Origin: Roseburia sp.
GTDB lineage: Bacteria; Bacillota_A; Clostridia; Lachnospirales; Lachnospiraceae
Length of the DNA stretch: 64,000 nt
Reading direction: 5' to 3'
Assembly (NCBI GenBank): GCA_019411365.1
Contig: DXQT01000001.1
Coordinates: 30,687-94,686 of the forward strand
Below are positions 57,516-63,702 of the stretch, in pieces; the first letter of the stretch is position 1, and the number at the start of each line of letters is the position of its first letter. The position numbers and the translations under genes were made by a program. The notes beneath the pieces were generated by a model. It did not search any database and was not told the origin of the DNA. It saw nothing but the letters and a program-made list of their open reading frames with translations.

Positions 57516-58130
57516 TTACTCCCCCTTTTGAAAACGTTCGATCGCATCTTTTACGTCATCCGCAAAAATTTCAACCACCTCTGCATTTTTCGTCTTATAC
57601 CGTATGATACCCATTTCCTCAAATGTCTGTCCGGCAATATAACACCGCAATGCCATCAGTACGCCACTATGCGTTACGATCAACACATCTTCCGTCTCCC
57701 GTTCTAAGATCATTCCGAGTGTATCAAGCGCACGCCTCAGCACTTCATTGTAACATTCTCCATGCGGTGTATGGACATAACGCCTGTTGGCATCCCAGTC
57801 CTGATACTCTTTCGCATTTTCCTGCGTAATGCTTTCCCAGCTTCTGCCTTCCCAGTCGCCCATATCCATTTCCCTCAGACCATCCGCCGCAATACATGGA
57901 ATATCAAGCGCGATCGCCGCCTCCTGTGCCGTCTGTGCTGCACGAAGCTGTGGGGATGTATATGCCCGCACAACCTGAAGAGTCCCTTCCTTTTTCCGAT
58001 CCAGAAGCATGTCCGCAAGCTCTTTTGCCTGCTGCTTTCCTGTCGCATTCAACGGCACATCTGTCTTGCCCTGTATTTTCTTTTTTACATTCCAGTCCGT
58101 CTCTCCGTGACGTACAAAATATAAAATCAT
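57516..58130 (-). CDS. Histidine phosphatase family protein
   Basis: A 204-residue phosphoglycerate-mutase-like enzyme with the phospho-His motif YFVRHGETDWN at residues 4-14, the Arg/Glu region LREMDMGDWEGRSW and the second His in VTHSGVLMALRCYI. Such enzymes in Firmicutes include cobalamin/alpha-ribazole phosphatases and broad phosphatases; the substrate is not readable. It stands alone between the fru promoter region and the rpn genes. Confidence 0.88.
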   Translation of the reverse strand: MILYFVRHGETDWNVKKKIQGKTDVPLNATGKQQAKELADMLLDRKKEGTLQVVRAYTSPQLRAAQTAQEAAIALDIPCIAADGLREMDMGDWEGRSWESITQENAKEYQDWDANRRYVHTPHGECYNEVLRRALDTLGMILERETEDVLIVTHSGVLMALRCYIAGQTFEEMGIIRYKTKNAEVVEIFADDVKDAIERFQKGE

Positions 58131-58247: not shown

Positions 58248-58391
58248 TATACTACATCTATCGCAATTCTATTTTATTTCCATAAGATCATTTTCTGAAT
58301 ATCACTTTTTTCATTCCGGCATTTCGCCAGCTATTTCAGAAAACTATTGTGAAAAACGTTTCAATTTTTTATAATCAAAGGAGAAAACTAC
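58248..58391 (+). repeat. Conserved upstream block of rpn copy 1
   Basis: About 144 bases ending at the start codon are nearly identical to 59727-59871 and 61013-61156, including TATACTACATCTATCGCAAT, CATTCCGGCATTTCGCCAGC and the ribosome binding site AAAGGAG. The copies of gene plus leader arose by tandem duplication. 58131-58247 shows nothing recognisable. Confidence 0.9.
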
Positions 58392-59483
58392 ATGGGGAAA
58401 AACAAAAGAAAACGCAGTCACACAAAACATGTTTTTGTGCAGAAGAAGTACCGGGATGCCTTATTCCGCAGAATTTTTAATGAGAAACCGGTTTTGCTGG
58501 AGTTATACAATGCCCTGAATCAGACAGATTATGACGATGCAGATGAACTGATCTTTTACACGATCGATGACGTGATCTATCTCGGATATAAAAATGATGT
58601 ATCATTTATTGTCCGTGGTACATTAAATCTGTATGAACACCAGAGTACCTTAAACCCAAACATGCCGATCTGCGGACTGATCTATTTCGGCAAACAGTAT
58701 GAAAGCTATATCAAACAAAATAACCTGAACATTTACGGGAAAAAACTGCTTTCACTGCCGTTTCCCCAGTTTGTTATTTTTTATAATGGGGTTGAACCGT
58801 TGGAAGATAATAAAGATTACATAGAGCTGCATCTTTCAGATGCGTTTATATGTGCTGAATCAAACCACCTGACAACAGATGCTGCACCCAGACAGCCAGT
58901 CGTTACTACTGATATGCCTGTTTCTGATATTGATGTCCCTGACTCCACTGCGAAAAATACCCCTGACTCTGTCAGCACCCGTCCCTGCTTAGAGTGTACT
59001 GCACGGGTTTACAACATTAATTATGGACACAATCAGGAATTAATGGCACGATGCCGGACTTTAGAGGAATATTCTATCCTGATTGGCAGAATTTCTTCGA
59101 AGGTCAGAAACGGTATTCCATTAGAACCGGCAGCGGATGCTGCTGTACAGGAATGTATCAGGGACGGTATTTTGCAGGATTTTCTTATCAAACACAGATC
59201 GGAGGTCGTTGGTATGTTATTGGAAGAATTCGATATGGATGAGTATATTAAAATGGAACGCAGGGACAGTTATGAGGATGGACATGAGGATGGCTTAGCC
59301 GAGGGCAAACGTCTTGAGCAGTTACACGTCGTCCACAACCTGTTTCAAAAAAGCATCCCTGCCGAAAACTGCGCCGACCTGCTTAATGAAAACACAGATT
59401 TTGTCAATAAAATATATTCACTGTGCCATGCTCACCCTGACTGGTCAGATGAAGATATTTACAATGCATTAAAAGAAAAATAA
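58392..59483 (+). CDS. Rpn family PD-(D/E)XK nuclease, copy 1
   Basis: A 363-residue protein of the Rpn (recombination-promoting nuclease/putative transposase) family. The N-terminal PD-(D/E)XK domain has Asp69 (KNDVSF) and Glu82-x-Gln84 (YEHQS) as catalytic residues, followed by MPICGLIYFGKQYESY and LPQFVIFYNG-like PFPQFVIFYNG. A variable Thr/Asp/Pro linker (about 160-200) precedes the C-terminal helical domain with EDGHEDGLAEGKRLEQ. It lacks the eight-residue GLAMGLAE expansion of copies 2 and 3. An internal ATG at 59214 (Met275) has its own GGAGG. Family members cut DNA and are linked to phage defence. Confidence 0.88.
   Translation: MGKNKRKRSHTKHVFVQKKYRDALFRRIFNEKPVLLELYNALNQTDYDDADELIFYTIDDVIYLGYKNDVSFIVRGTLNLYEHQSTLNPNMPICGLIYFGKQYESYIKQNNLNIYGKKLLSLPFPQFVIFYNGVEPLEDNKDYIELHLSDAFICAESNHLTTDAAPRQPVVTTDMPVSDIDVPDSTAKNTPDSVSTRPCLECTARVYNINYGHNQELMARCRTLEEYSILIGRISSKVRNGIPLEPAADAAVQECIRDGILQDFLIKHRSEVVGMLLEEFDMDEYIKMERRDSYEDGHEDGLAEGKRLEQLHVVHNLFQKSIPAENCADLLNENTDFVNKIYSLCHAHPDWSDEDIYNALKEK
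59201..59483 (+). other. Candidate intragenic antitoxin (RpnS-like) in copy 1
   Basis: GGAGG at 59201-59205 is eight bases before the in-frame ATG 59214, which would give an 89-residue C-terminal product (MLLEEFDMDEYIKMERRDSY to the end). In E. coli, Rpn genes make a small C-terminal protein from such an internal start that blocks the toxic full-length nuclease. Confidence 0.5.
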
Positions 59484-59498
59484 AGCTTTATTAAAATT

Positions 59499-59689
59499 CC
59501 TGTAAGTATATCATTTTATCAATATGTTACTGTTCACTCGTACCTCGTTCCAGTAACGGATTTTGCCGATGCTTCGCATTCCAAATCGGCAAAATCTGCT
59601 GCCACCACTGTATCATACGGCATTTTCAGTTCAGAAAATGCCTGCCTGTGAACAGTAACATCAATATCCCATACTTGCAGGGATCTTTT
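59499..59689 (+). terminator. rpn copy 1 terminator split by a MITE
   Basis: The arms CCTGTAAGTAT (59499-59509) and ATACTTGCAGG (59671-59681), followed by GATCTTTT, would form the terminator; a 134-bp element with target duplication now separates them. The matching terminator of copy 2 at 60931-60972 is intact. Confidence 0.65.
59526..59659. mobile_element. 134-bp MITE with 8-bp target site duplication
   Basis: Terminal inverted repeats GTTACTGTTCAC (59526-59537) and GTGAACAGTAAC (59648-59659) are flanked by the direct repeat ATCAATAT at 59518-59525 and 59660-59667. Inside are two more hairpins: GATTTTGCCGAT/ATCGGCAAAATC (59559-59570, 59585-59596) and GGCATTTTC/GAAAATGCC (59619-59627, 59634-59642). 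It has no coding capacity, so it depends on a transposase elsewhere. Confidence 0.85.
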
Positions 59690-59726
59690 CTTTCTATTCT
59701 ACTTTTGTATAATAATATCTTTATGT

Positions 59727-59871
59727 TATACTACATCTATCGCAATTCGATTTTATTTCCATAAAATCATTTTCTGAATACCATTCTTTTTCATTCCGGC
59801 ATTTCGCCAGCTATTTCAGAAAACTATTGTGAAAAACGTTTCAATTTTTTATAATCAAAGGAGAAAACTAC
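59727..59871 (+). repeat. Conserved upstream block of rpn copy 2
   Basis: Nearly identical to 58248-58391 and 61013-61156, with scattered single-base changes, and ending at the start codon. Confidence 0.9.
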
Positions 59872-60924
59872 ATGGGGAAAAACAAAAGAAAACGCAGTCA
59901 CACAAAACATGTTTTTGTGCAGAAGAAGTACCGGGATGCCTTGTTCCGCAGGATTTTTAATGAGAAATCAGTTTTGATGGAGTTATACAATGCCCTGAAT
60001 CAGACAGATTACGATGATGCAGATGAACTGATTTTCTATACGATTGACGATGTAATCTATCTCGGATATAAAAATGACGTGTCATTTATTGTTCGCGGAA
60101 CACTGAATCTGTATGAACACCAGAGTACCTTAAACCCCAACATGCCGATCCGCGGATTGATCTATTTCGGCAAACAGTATGAAAGCTATATCAAACAACA
60201 TAACCTGAACATTTATGGGAAAAAAATGCTTTCGCTGCCGTTTCCGCAGTTTGTTATATTTTATAATGGATTTGAACCGTTGGAAAATGATAAAGATTAC
60301 ATGGAACTGCATCTTTCGGATGCGTTTGTATATGCCGGATCAAATCACCTGGCAACAGATGCTGCATCCAGCCCCATCAGCACCCGCCCCTGCTTAGAAT
60401 GTACTGCGCGGGTTTACAATATTAATTATGGGCACAATCAGGAACTGATGGCGCGATGCCGGACTTTAGAGGAATATTCCATTCTGATTGGCAGAATCTC
60501 TTCGAAGGTCAGAACCGGCATTCCATTAGAACAGGCAGCAGATACCGCTGTACAGGAATGTATCAGGGACGGTATTTTGCAGGATTTTCTTATCAAACAC
60601 AGATCGGAGGTCGTTGGTATGTTATTGGAAGAATTCGATATGGATGAGTATATTAAGATGGAACGCAGGGACAGCTATGCGGATGGACATGAGGATGGCT
60701 TAGCGATGGGTTTAGCGGAGGGTTTAGCGGAGGGCAAACGTCTTGAGCAATTACACATCATCCACAACATGTTCCAGGAAAATATTCCTGCACAAAGCTG
60801 TGCTAAGTTGCTTGACAAGGACGTTACATTTATCAGCAAAGTGTATTCTCTATGTCAGGCTCACCCTGACTGGTCAGATGAAGATCTTTACCATGCATTA
60901 AAAGAAAAATGGATTTCACTATAA
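59872..60924 (+). CDS. Rpn family PD-(D/E)XK nuclease, copy 2
   Basis: A 350-residue paralogue with the same catalytic Asp69, Glu82 and Gln84. The linker between nuclease and C-terminal domain is about 21 residues shorter than in copies 1 and 3 (TDAASSPISTRPCLE). The C-terminal domain has the expanded GLAMGLAEGLAEGK and an end extension KWISL. Silent and conservative changes across the nuclease domain show it diverged before the exchange that made copy 3. The internal GGAGG plus ATG (60619) is kept. Confidence 0.88.
   Translation: MGKNKRKRSHTKHVFVQKKYRDALFRRIFNEKSVLMELYNALNQTDYDDADELIFYTIDDVIYLGYKNDVSFIVRGTLNLYEHQSTLNPNMPIRGLIYFGKQYESYIKQHNLNIYGKKMLSLPFPQFVIFYNGFEPLENDKDYMELHLSDAFVYAGSNHLATDAASSPISTRPCLECTARVYNINYGHNQELMARCRTLEEYSILIGRISSKVRTGIPLEQAADTAVQECIRDGILQDFLIKHRSEVVGMLLEEFDMDEYIKMERRDSYADGHEDGLAMGLAEGLAEGKRLEQLHIIHNMFQENIPAQSCAKLLDKDVTFISKVYSLCQAHPDWSDEDLYHALKEKWISL
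60606..60924 (+). other. Candidate intragenic antitoxin (RpnS-like) in copy 2
   Basis: GGAGG at 60606-60610, eight-base spacer, in-frame ATG at 60619; product 101 residues. Confidence 0.5.
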
Positions 60925-60930
60925 AAATCT

Positions 60931-60973
60931 CTGTAAGCATATATCCATTATCGCATACTTACAGGGATTTTTT
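60931..60973 (+). terminator. rpn copy 2 terminator
   Basis: CTGTAAGCAT (60931-60940) pairs with ATACTTACAG (60955-60964, one mismatch), followed by GGATTTTTT. Confidence 0.75.
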
Positions 60974-61012
60974 CTCTATATATTCTGCTTGTCTATAATA
61001 GCATCTTCATGC

Positions 61013-61156
61013 TATACTACATCTATCGCAATTCGATTTTATTTCCATAAGATCATTTTCTGAATACCACTCTTTTCATTCCGGCATTTCGCCAGCTATT
61101 TCAGAAAACTATTGTGAAAAACACCTAAATTTTTTATAATCAAAGGAGAAAACTAC
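61013..61156 (+). repeat. Conserved upstream block of rpn copy 3
   Basis: Third copy of the 144-base leader; it differs near the end (AACACCTAAATT where copies 1 and 2 have AACGTTTCAATT). Confidence 0.9.
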
Positions 61157-62272
61157 ATGGGGAAAAACAAAGGAAAACGCAGTCACACAAAACATGTTTT
61201 TGTGCAGAAGAAGTACCGGGATGCCTTATTCCGCAGAATTTTTAATGAGAAACCGGTTTTGCTGGAGTTATACAATGCCCTGAATCAGACAGATTATGAC
61301 GATGCAGATGAACTGATCTTTTACACGATCGATGACGTGATCTATCTCGGATATAAAAATGATGTATCATTTATTGTCCGTGGTACATTAAATCTGTATG
61401 AACACCAGAGTACCTTAAACCCAAACATGCCGATCTGCGGACTGATCTATTTCGGCAAACAGTATGAAAGCTATATCAAACAAAATAACCTGAACATTTA
61501 CGGGAAAAAACTGCTTTCACTGCCGTTTCCCCAGTTTGTTATTTTTTATAATGGGGTTGAACCGTTGGAAGATAATAAAGATTACATAGAGCTGCATCTT
61601 TCAGATGCGTTTATATGTGCTGAATCAAACCACCTGACAACAGATGCTGCATCCAGACAGCCAGTCGTCACTACTGATATTCCTGTTTCTGATATTGATG
61701 TCCCTGACTCCGCTGCGCAAAATACGTTCAGCGCCATCGGCACCCGCCCCTGCTTAGAGTGCACTGCGAGGGTTTACAACATTAATTACGGACACAATCA
61801 GGAACTGATGGCACGATGCCGGACTTTAGAGGAATATTCCATTCTGATCGGCAGAATTTCTTCGAATGTCAGAAACGGTATTCCATTAGAACCGGCAGCG
61901 GATGCTGCTGTACAGGCATGTATCAGGAACGGTATCCTAAAGGATTTTCTTATCAAACACAGATCGGAGGTCGTTGGTATGTTATTGGAAGAATTCGATA
62001 TGGATGAGTATATTAAGATGGAACGCAGGGACAGCTATGCGGATGGACATGAGGATGGCTTAGCGATGGGTTTAGCGGAGGGTTTAGCGGAGGGCAAACG
62101 TCTTGAGCAATTACACATCATCCACAACATGTTCCAGGAAAATATTCCTGCACAAAGCTGTGCTAAACTGCTTAACAAGGATACTGCTTTTATTGATAAA
62201 GTATATTCACTGTGCCAGGCTCACCCTGACTGGTCAGATGAAGATCTTTACAATTCACTAAAAGAAAATTAA
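61157..62272 (+). CDS. Rpn family PD-(D/E)XK nuclease, copy 3 (mosaic)
   Basis: A 371-residue paralogue. Its N-terminal 160 residues equal copy 1 except Arg6 to Gly, down to synonymous bases, while its C-terminal 90 residues follow copy 2 (SYADGHEDGLAMGLAEGLAEGKRLEQLHIIHNMFQENIP). It is therefore a recombinant of the two or the product of gene conversion. The catalytic residues and the internal GGAGG with ATG (61979) are intact. It ends before a strong bidirectional terminator. Confidence 0.88.
   Translation: MGKNKGKRSHTKHVFVQKKYRDALFRRIFNEKPVLLELYNALNQTDYDDADELIFYTIDDVIYLGYKNDVSFIVRGTLNLYEHQSTLNPNMPICGLIYFGKQYESYIKQNNLNIYGKKLLSLPFPQFVIFYNGVEPLEDNKDYIELHLSDAFICAESNHLTTDAASRQPVVTTDIPVSDIDVPDSAAQNTFSAIGTRPCLECTARVYNINYGHNQELMARCRTLEEYSILIGRISSNVRNGIPLEPAADAAVQACIRNGILKDFLIKHRSEVVGMLLEEFDMDEYIKMERRDSYADGHEDGLAMGLAEGLAEGKRLEQLHIIHNMFQENIPAQSCAKLLNKDTAFIDKVYSLCQAHPDWSDEDLYNSLKEN
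61966..62272 (+). other. Candidate intragenic antitoxin (RpnS-like) in copy 3
   Basis: GGAGG at 61966-61970, eight-base spacer, in-frame ATG at 61979; product 97 residues. Confidence 0.5.
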
Positions 62273-62373: not shown

Positions 62374-63702
62374 TTACTGAAATATTTCTTTTTTACAGAT
62401 CACATAGGAAATCCCTGCCACAACCACTTCCGTGATCCAGAACGCATGCCAGACGCCCGCAGCCCCCAATATTCTACTCAAAATAAATGCCAATGGTAAA
62501 ATAACTGCTATGTACCTGAGCACAGAAATTACCAACGATTCTTTTCCCTTTCCCAGTCCTTCCAACGCACCTGATACCGTGACGGAGACCGATGACGCAA
62601 TAAATCCAATGCTGATCAGACGAAGCGCCTCTTTTCCAAATTGTATCGTCTCCGGATTACTGGTAAACAATCCAATAAGCGTCTGCGGCACTGCCATACA
62701 AAGTATCGTTCCGATTACCATGACCCCCGCGATCAATACCAGCGCTGACCGGAAAATTTCTCTGACACGTTTTGACTCTCCCGCACCGTAGTTATATCCG
62801 ATCAGAGGACGCATCCCCTGCACGACACCATTTCCTGTCAGATATAAAAATGTCTGTAATTTAAAATAAGCTCCCAGCACAAGTACATAGCTGGCGGAAT
62901 AAACCGCAAGAATCGCATTTAATGCAGAGACCTGTACAGACGGCAGGGCGATGCTCAACGTTGCCGGGACACCGATTGAGTACATTTTCCTGCTAAGTTC
63001 CGCTTCCGGTTTCATATCTTTCCATCTTATCTTTACCGGAATCGGTTTAAAAAAATAAAACAGCAGATAGCTGACAAGAGAAGCCATCTGACCGATCCCG
63101 GTTGCGATAGCAGCTCCCCGGATCCCCATTTCAGGAAAGAAACCAATTCCAAATATCATAAAAGGATCTAAGATAATATTGGTCACACAGCCGATCAGCA
63201 TACAGAGCATGGACGTTTTCATGCGCCCCACTGACTGAAAAATTTTTTCAAAGCAAAGCCCTGCCGCATTGGGTACTGCAAAAAGAAATACGATCTGCGC
63301 GTATGCTGCGCCCATGTCTATGATCGACCTTTTATCTGTAAACATGGCAAGAAAAGGTGCTGTGATTGCAATGCAGACTACCGCTAAGATCAGTCCGTGG
63401 ATCATGTTAAAAAGTGTTCCAAGCGACGCCGCCTTATCCGCCGTGTTCTGTTTTTGTGCTCCAAGAAAATATGCGATTGTCGCATTGATTCCGATTGCAA
63501 ATCCGATAACAACTGCATTGACCAGATTCTGCAATGGGAACACCAAAGATAGTGCCGTCATCGCATCTTCGCTGATGCGCGCCACAAAATAACTGTCAAT
63601 GATATTGTAGAGCGCATTGACTAACATGGAAAATGTCATTGGCAATGCCATGGAGATCACAAGCGGCATGACCGGTTTTTCTTTCATAAAATTCTGGTTC
63701 AT
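62374..63702 (-). CDS. MATE family efflux transporter
   Basis: A 442-residue, twelve-helix transporter of the MATE family: MALPMTFSMLVNALYNIIDSYFVARI at the start, AIGINATIAYFLGAQ in the first half and GVVQGMRPLIGYNYGAGESKRV in the second. It uses a sodium or proton gradient to export cationic compounds. The start at 63702 follows GAAAGGAA. Substrate unknown. Confidence 0.93.
   Translation of the reverse strand: MNQNFMKEKPVMPLVISMALPMTFSMLVNALYNIIDSYFVARISEDAMTALSLVFPLQNLVNAVVIGFAIGINATIAYFLGAQKQNTADKAASLGTLFNMIHGLILAVVCIAITAPFLAMFTDKRSIIDMGAAYAQIVFLFAVPNAAGLCFEKIFQSVGRMKTSMLCMLIGCVTNIILDPFMIFGIGFFPEMGIRGAAIATGIGQMASLVSYLLFYFFKPIPVKIRWKDMKPEAELSRKMYSIGVPATLSIALPSVQVSALNAILAVYSASYVLVLGAYFKLQTFLYLTGNGVVQGMRPLIGYNYGAGESKRVREIFRSALVLIAGVMVIGTILCMAVPQTLIGLFTSNPETIQFGKEALRLISIGFIASSVSVTVSGALEGLGKGKESLVISVLRYIAVILPLAFILSRILGAAGVWHAFWITEVVVAGISYVICKKEIFQ

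Follow-up and report, generated by a model that had tools for sequence, protein, structure and literature searches.

Whether a single reading frame can supply both a nuclease toxin and the protein that restrains it is the question raised by three neighboring genes of a Roseburia genome. These genes form a tandem direct array on the + strand of a 64,000-nucleotide stretch of Roseburia sp. DNA (assembly GCA_019411365.1, contig DXQT01000001.1, positions 30,687 to 94,686), referred to below as the window. They comprise 363, 350 and 371 codons and are predicted to encode the full-length Rpn-like nucleases L1 (copy 1, 58392..59483, 363 amino acids), L2 (copy 2, 59872..60924, 350 amino acids) and L3 (copy 3, 61157..62272, 371 amino acids). 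Codon choice among relatives of the three genes argues strongly that a start site inside each gene is under selection, well beyond protein constraint, and this internal start is almost certainly used. The wider explanation, in which each copy would be an Rpn-like toxin/antitoxin gene-within-a-gene, has a probability of roughly 0.78.

In each copy, a Shine-Dalgarno (SD) sequence GGAGG (59201..59205, 60606..60610 and 61966..61970 in copies 1, 2 and 3, all +) is followed at a spacing of eight nucleotides by an in-frame ATG. This ATG opens an internal open reading frame (ORF) for a putative antitoxin, namely S1 (59214..59483, +, 89 amino acids), S2 (60619..60924, +, 101 amino acids) and S3 (61979..62272, +, 97 amino acids). 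These positions and product sizes are as an earlier note on this DNA had given them. That note had also placed the site in an identical stretch amid diverged surroundings. The identical stretch is there, as a 76-nucleotide run shared by all three copies (59176..59251, 60581-60656 and 61941-62016, +), but the surroundings are a mosaic in which parts are near-identical. The run is the longest invariant one in the three-copy alignment, followed by runs of 55, 50 and 44 nucleotides at the gene 5′ end and in the leader, and a run of at least 76 nucleotides arose in 0.3% of 5000 shuffles of the alignment (129 variable columns among 1017 ungapped coding columns). Three recent copies alone are weak evidence for an internal start, and it is the comparison with relatives that carries the weight.

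For this comparison, 149 ORFs were matched from 150 loci and the window. The loci are the best-scoring places among the matches listed, together with 11 others, and are not a random sample. Of these ORFs 146 were distinct, and removal of seven distant, poorly aligned rows left 139 genes, including the three window copies; six of the seven dropped rows have an SD and an ATG at the start column or one codon later. An in-frame start codon with an SD core is found within two codons of the site in 136 of the 139 genes, at the column itself in 124 and shifted in 12. The codon at the column is ATG in 84 genes, GTG in 37, TTG in 5 and something else in 13, and in 12 of these 13 the start has moved by one or two codons and again has an SD core. 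Where the column encodes Val, the codon is GTG in 37 of 38 cases, against a same-gene background of 34.5%. The same holds upstream, within the SD sequence: Glu at −4 is GAG in 129 of 133 genes (background 40.6%), Ala at −5 is GCG in 62 of 75 (27.2%), and Ser at −5 is TCG in 19 of 26 (13.4%).

A scan for synonymous skew places column −4 at the top of 318 columns (z 82, runner-up 30), and it stays at the top in sets thinned to less than 60% identity (101 rows) and less than 50% identity (65 rows). High values at two Ser columns (−101 and −179) were set aside, in the author's judgement, as products of the TCN/AGY split of the serine codons. In addition, the pairing energy of the site with the 16S tail is −9.66 kcal/mol, compared to −4.85 kcal/mol in synonymous resamples, and among 287 columns the only outliers lie around the internal-start site. 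In the six genes whose start lies two codons upstream, the SD likewise lies upstream; four of them keep Glu at −4, and in all four it is GAA. The SD core is present in 82 of the 84 Met rows of the internal-start column. Four more columns carry Met in 50% of the rows or above, and there the core is present in 11 of 72, 2 of 90, 1 of 110 and 0 of 95.

Once the criterion had been fixed, further loci were fetched (38 genome loci and 3 contigs from a phage collection, with 47 ORFs), and two ORFs without coverage of the site were left out. The internal start is found in 44 of the remaining 45, with Val as GTG in 15 of 15 and Glu as GAG in 42 of 42. These loci repeat the result rather than confirm it independently, because the genomes come from the same family search and include second copies or near-duplicates (L226, L227, L237 and L253, for example, each give more than one ORF), as well as a locus, L249, from a genome already used. 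The earlier note had named an alignment of homologues as a check on whether the GGAGG and ATG are conserved beyond protein constraint, and loss of the GGAGG from most homologues as what would overturn its proposal. The check came out strongly positive, in the 136 of 139 genes and in the codon skew alike, and since the internal start is conserved in this way, no such general loss has taken place.

The known system that these genes resemble is that of the Rpn proteins of E. coli. For comparison, RpnA-E and RpnP2 (PF04754, Transposase_31; COG5464) were considered, as described by Zhong et al. 2023 (PMC10327210) and Kingston et al. 2017 (PMC5350276). The main text of the former describes RpnL/RpnS pairs of toxin and intragenic antitoxin in E. 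coli, in agreement with what the earlier note had said of them, and also reports that a C. difficile rpn gene yields a short product in E. coli. The window genes have in common with the E. coli genes, as published there, a PD-(D/E)XK core with D..D..ExQ and a following Arg, a ribosome-binding site and start codon inside the gene at the C-terminal domain border, repeats of four residues in variable number after the internal start, and an arrangement in tandem arrays. They differ in that the window proteins score below the Pfam model, that S has 89-101 amino acids compared to about 49 in RpnA, and that the codons over the SD spell A/S-E-V-x-x-M in the window family compared to K240-E241-x-x-M244 in RpnA.

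The internal start also extends beyond the window family. Among other Bacillota proteins of PF04754 (L152-L181, 29 rows), an SD signal is found at the same border (observed minus synonymous expectation −3.09, column standard deviation 0.59), although its codons differ and spell E-G/R-S-E-x-x-M or W-E-V-E-x-M. Four of these rows (L170, L171, L172 and L174) have no in-frame start at the border, and L168 does not cover it. PDDEXK_2 (PF12784) is a further family of nucleases or putative transposases related to Rpn, and by Pfam model name it shares the broad nuclease class of the window family. Its 28 aligned Bacillota members (L182-L211), whose variable C-terminal parts align less well, show no comparable internal SD signal, and their strongest signal is at the main start (−2.04); given the poorer alignment, this negative is a tentative one. 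Because the PF04754 set mostly shows the signal and the PF12784 set shows none beyond the main start, the internal start would seem to be a property of certain branches of these nucleases, with no clear case that every branch has it.

The relationship of the family to Rpn is distant. In a single hhalign comparison, 77 relatives of the window proteins aligned with the 29 PF04754 proteins over 271 columns at a probability of 97.7%, and the catalytic EHQ of the family lined up with the EHK/EHQ block of PF04754. In addition, 11 of the 77 relatives match PF04754 directly at E ≤ 0.01 (for example P0102, with 28.6 bits and a cut-off of 21). D69, E82, Q84 and D22 are invariant among the 77, and across the 139 genes the active site is kept as D in 137 (with 2 gaps), E in 136, Q in 136 and the first D in 107. 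Family residues D69, E82, Q84 and R94 align with RpnA residues that have been studied by mutation: Kingston et al. report that D63A, E82A and Q84K each lost all three phenotypes scored, while Q84A and R94A lost recombination and retained toxicity (PMC5350276). In Rpn pairs S is expected to be a dimer-forming three-helix bundle. An AlphaFold2 model of the full-length window protein (pLDDT 74.5) has a mixed alpha/beta N-terminal part, followed by one long helix (257-302) and three short ones; among its weak fold matches, helix-turn-helix domains are found in the better rows for residues 286-347, and no RpnA-S entry is among the matches listed. The view that the window proteins are distant relatives of the Rpn/YhgA nucleases holds on these alignments. 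As the window proteins have no direct PF04754 match while 11 of 77 relatives do, the family is best placed as an Rpn-like sister lineage, outside PF04754 proper.

In the proposed mechanism, each copy would use its own promoter to express the full-length PD-(D/E)XK nuclease L, and the conserved internal ribosome-binding site and start would yield the C-terminal domain alone, S (89-101 amino acids). S would most likely pair with the same domain of L through the long helix that bears the repeats, and so hold the nuclease inactive. Phage infection or another stress would then upset the balance of L and S and release the nuclease, and the C-terminal domain would act as an exchangeable specificity module. 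By analogy with E. coli we infer that S is produced, that L is toxic, that S neutralizes L and that the system defends against phage. That S is an antitoxin is probable on these grounds, and a role against phage has somewhat better than even chances. The earlier view of a three-copy, Rpn-like array with intragenic starts is thus supported by the conserved internal start and by the distant homology to Rpn, although its assignment of the proteins to Rpn itself stands in respect of homology (97.7%) and catalytic residues and not of any direct match to Pfam, NCBIfam or PADLOC.

Several observations weigh against this explanation. The window proteins have no Pfam match at E ≤ 0.001 and no match to PF04754 at E ≤ 10, and no NCBIfam or PADLOC family was matched. 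The D11-equivalent Asp is replaced by Ser in 24 of the 139 rows, the fold matches are weak (the better rows for residues 10-252 are PD-(D/E)XK nucleases), and the model of S alone is poor (pLDDT 61.5). Locally, the mRNA is predicted to fold more strongly near the internal start than near the main start (−10.3 versus −2.1 kcal/mol). A promoter-consensus scan of the region found no internal promoter 5′ of the internal start, in contrast to the E. coli rpn genes, for which the published main text reports internal transcription starts. Control for shared descent came from the thinned sets alone. Finally, L037, L039 and L147 have no start with an SD core within two codons of the site in the 139-gene set, and L235 is the single miss among the 45 further ORFs. 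These four rare members have seemingly lost the internal SD or start, and could be nucleases that lack an intragenic antitoxin, or else dead genes.

The C-terminal domains of the array have a history of their own. Copies 1 and 3 agree at 789 of 822 nucleotides of the N-terminal part, and copies 1 and 2 at 683 of 747; in the C-terminal part the agreement is 272 of 294 nucleotides for copies 2 and 3, and 233 of 270 for copies 1 and 3. Copy 3 is therefore a mosaic, with an N-terminal part near copy 1 and a C-terminal part near copy 2. Database alleles point the same way: P0011 joins the N-terminal part of copy 2 (231/233 amino acids) to the C-terminal part of copy 1 (89/89), P0007 carries the latter (89/89) on a different N-terminal part (232/248), and P0005 joins the N-terminal part of copy 1 (272/274) to the C-terminal part of copy 3 (96/97). 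These alignments indicate that C-terminal modules are exchanged between alleles. In the nearest genome, G001 (L151), there is a single gene, with a C-terminal part identical to that of copy 3 (294/294 nucleotides), and copies 1 and 2 are absent; the gene carries a TAG at codon 115 (L151:4044) and retains both its internal start and an uninterrupted S frame, and in its leader some 2.2 kb of additional DNA (L151:1380-3619) includes an IS66-type transposase gene.

The four-residue repeat is encoded by a 12-nucleotide unit, which is present once in copy 1 (59295..59306, +, from the three-copy alignment) and as a tandem repeat of 2.9 copies in copy 2 (60700..60734, +) and copy 3 (62060..62094, +). 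The repeat segment is 13 amino acids long in copy 1; in copies 2 and 3, which also share most of the C-terminal domain, it is 21 long. In 18 of 19 close alleles compared, the segment has 9, 13, 17 or 21 amino acids, and the remaining allele is truncated. For RpnC, an altered repeat number is reported in the main text of Zhong et al. to break the pairing of L and S (PMC10327210). Under this rule, with segments of 21 and 21 compared to 13 amino acids, S2 and S3 are each expected to inhibit the other's nuclease as well, and S1 is not, which sharpens the earlier note's suggestion that cross-inhibition may be partial. Each exchange of the C-terminal domain, which is common to L and S, would re-pair toxin and antitoxin at once. 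A broader proposal, in which the internal-start region is the joint of exchange, arrays hold private and shared pairs set by repeat number, and the Cys94 toxins described below are altered, is put forward tentatively; if true, copy 1 would be an orthogonal pair and copies 2 and 3 a shared one.

The rival that survives best, though an unlikely one, holds that copies 1 and 3 encode toxins that are altered or in decay and are retained chiefly for S, so that the array is above all a bank of antitoxins. The position of RpnA R94 is Cys in copy 1 (codon 58671-58673, +) and copy 3 (codon 61436-61438, +) and Arg in copy 2, and across the 139 rows it is Arg in 135, Cys in these two alone and a gap in 2; the G001 gene, stopped at codon 115 with an intact S frame identical to that of copy 3 (294/294 nucleotides), fits the same idea. 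However, the truncated gene is one case only, and the database allele P0006 also has Cys, so that the change is not private to the window strain. In addition, RpnA R94A is toxic (about threefold above wild type) and SOS-inducing in E. coli, as Kingston et al. report (PMC5350276), copies 1 and 3 have uninterrupted ORFs that retain D, D, E and Q, and the variable sites between copies in the N-terminal part fall mostly at third codon positions (49 of 77).

Somewhat less likely again is that the internal start is real and that S, rather than being an antitoxin, acts as a partner subunit or as a DNA-binding autoregulator whose tail is helix-turn-helix-like. Against this, Zhong et al. describe RpnA-S, whose internal start sits at the corresponding border, as an inhibitor, and report that it too resembles helix-turn-helix proteins (PMC10327210). 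Repeat variation like that which sets L-S specificity in RpnC also occurs in this family. Lastly, it is highly improbable that the motif reflects only protein constraint or homogenization by gene conversion, with no second product, since, although E-V-x-x-M/V is conserved as a protein motif too and the copies do swap segments, the synonymous skew at −4 and −5 and the GTG-only valines, the loss of GAG exactly where start and SD lie two codons upstream, and a pattern lacking at other Met columns and repeated in further loci all speak against it.

A histidine phosphatase gene (57516-58130, −) lies on one side of the array and a MatE transporter gene (62374-63702, −) on the other. Each copy has its own repeated leader, with a promoter-like TTGTGA-17-TATAAT (58347..58375, matching 10/12, 59827..59855 and 61112..61140, all +) and then GGAG 5′ of the main ATG. 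As the region holds 21 promoter-like sites compared to 14.0 ± 4.1 in shuffles, these are consensus matches only. A 134-nucleotide palindromic element (59526-59659) with 12-nucleotide inverted ends (GTTACTGTTCAC) lies within the terminator-like stem 3′ of copy 1 and is flanked on both sides by ATCAATAT. It folds strongly (z −7.8) and resembles a small, non-autonomous mobile element; of 9 matches to it in G001, 7 are near-full copies. Related records of the nuclease family include Lachnospiraceae, Roseburia and [Clostridium] asparagiforme. Members with 38-40% identity are also found on three 'Bacteriophage sp.' contigs from human feces (L252, L253 and L254; unannotated and marked UNVERIFIED); the internal start is present in every one of them, and on L253 two members lie in tandem.

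In the main texts and search listings examined, there is no codon-level or shifted-start analysis of this kind and no treatment of this Lachnospiraceae lineage. What is new here is the codon-level evidence, the exchange of C-terminal modules between alleles, and the replacement of Arg94 by Cys in two of the copies, 1 and 3. A gene inside another gene is not easily distinguished from a chance pattern, and codon choice across this large family of gut bacteria, including shifted starts with the ribosome-binding core moving along, makes a strong case, based on alignment, for an internal start. The three-copy array is, moreover, a natural test of repeat-based specificity between toxin and antitoxin. 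Finally, since this gene family occurs in 158 of the 397 genomes sampled from the family of the nearest genome (E ≤ 1e-20), and the window proteins go unlabelled by three domain libraries, a common class of possible defense genes in gut Lachnospiraceae may go unnamed.
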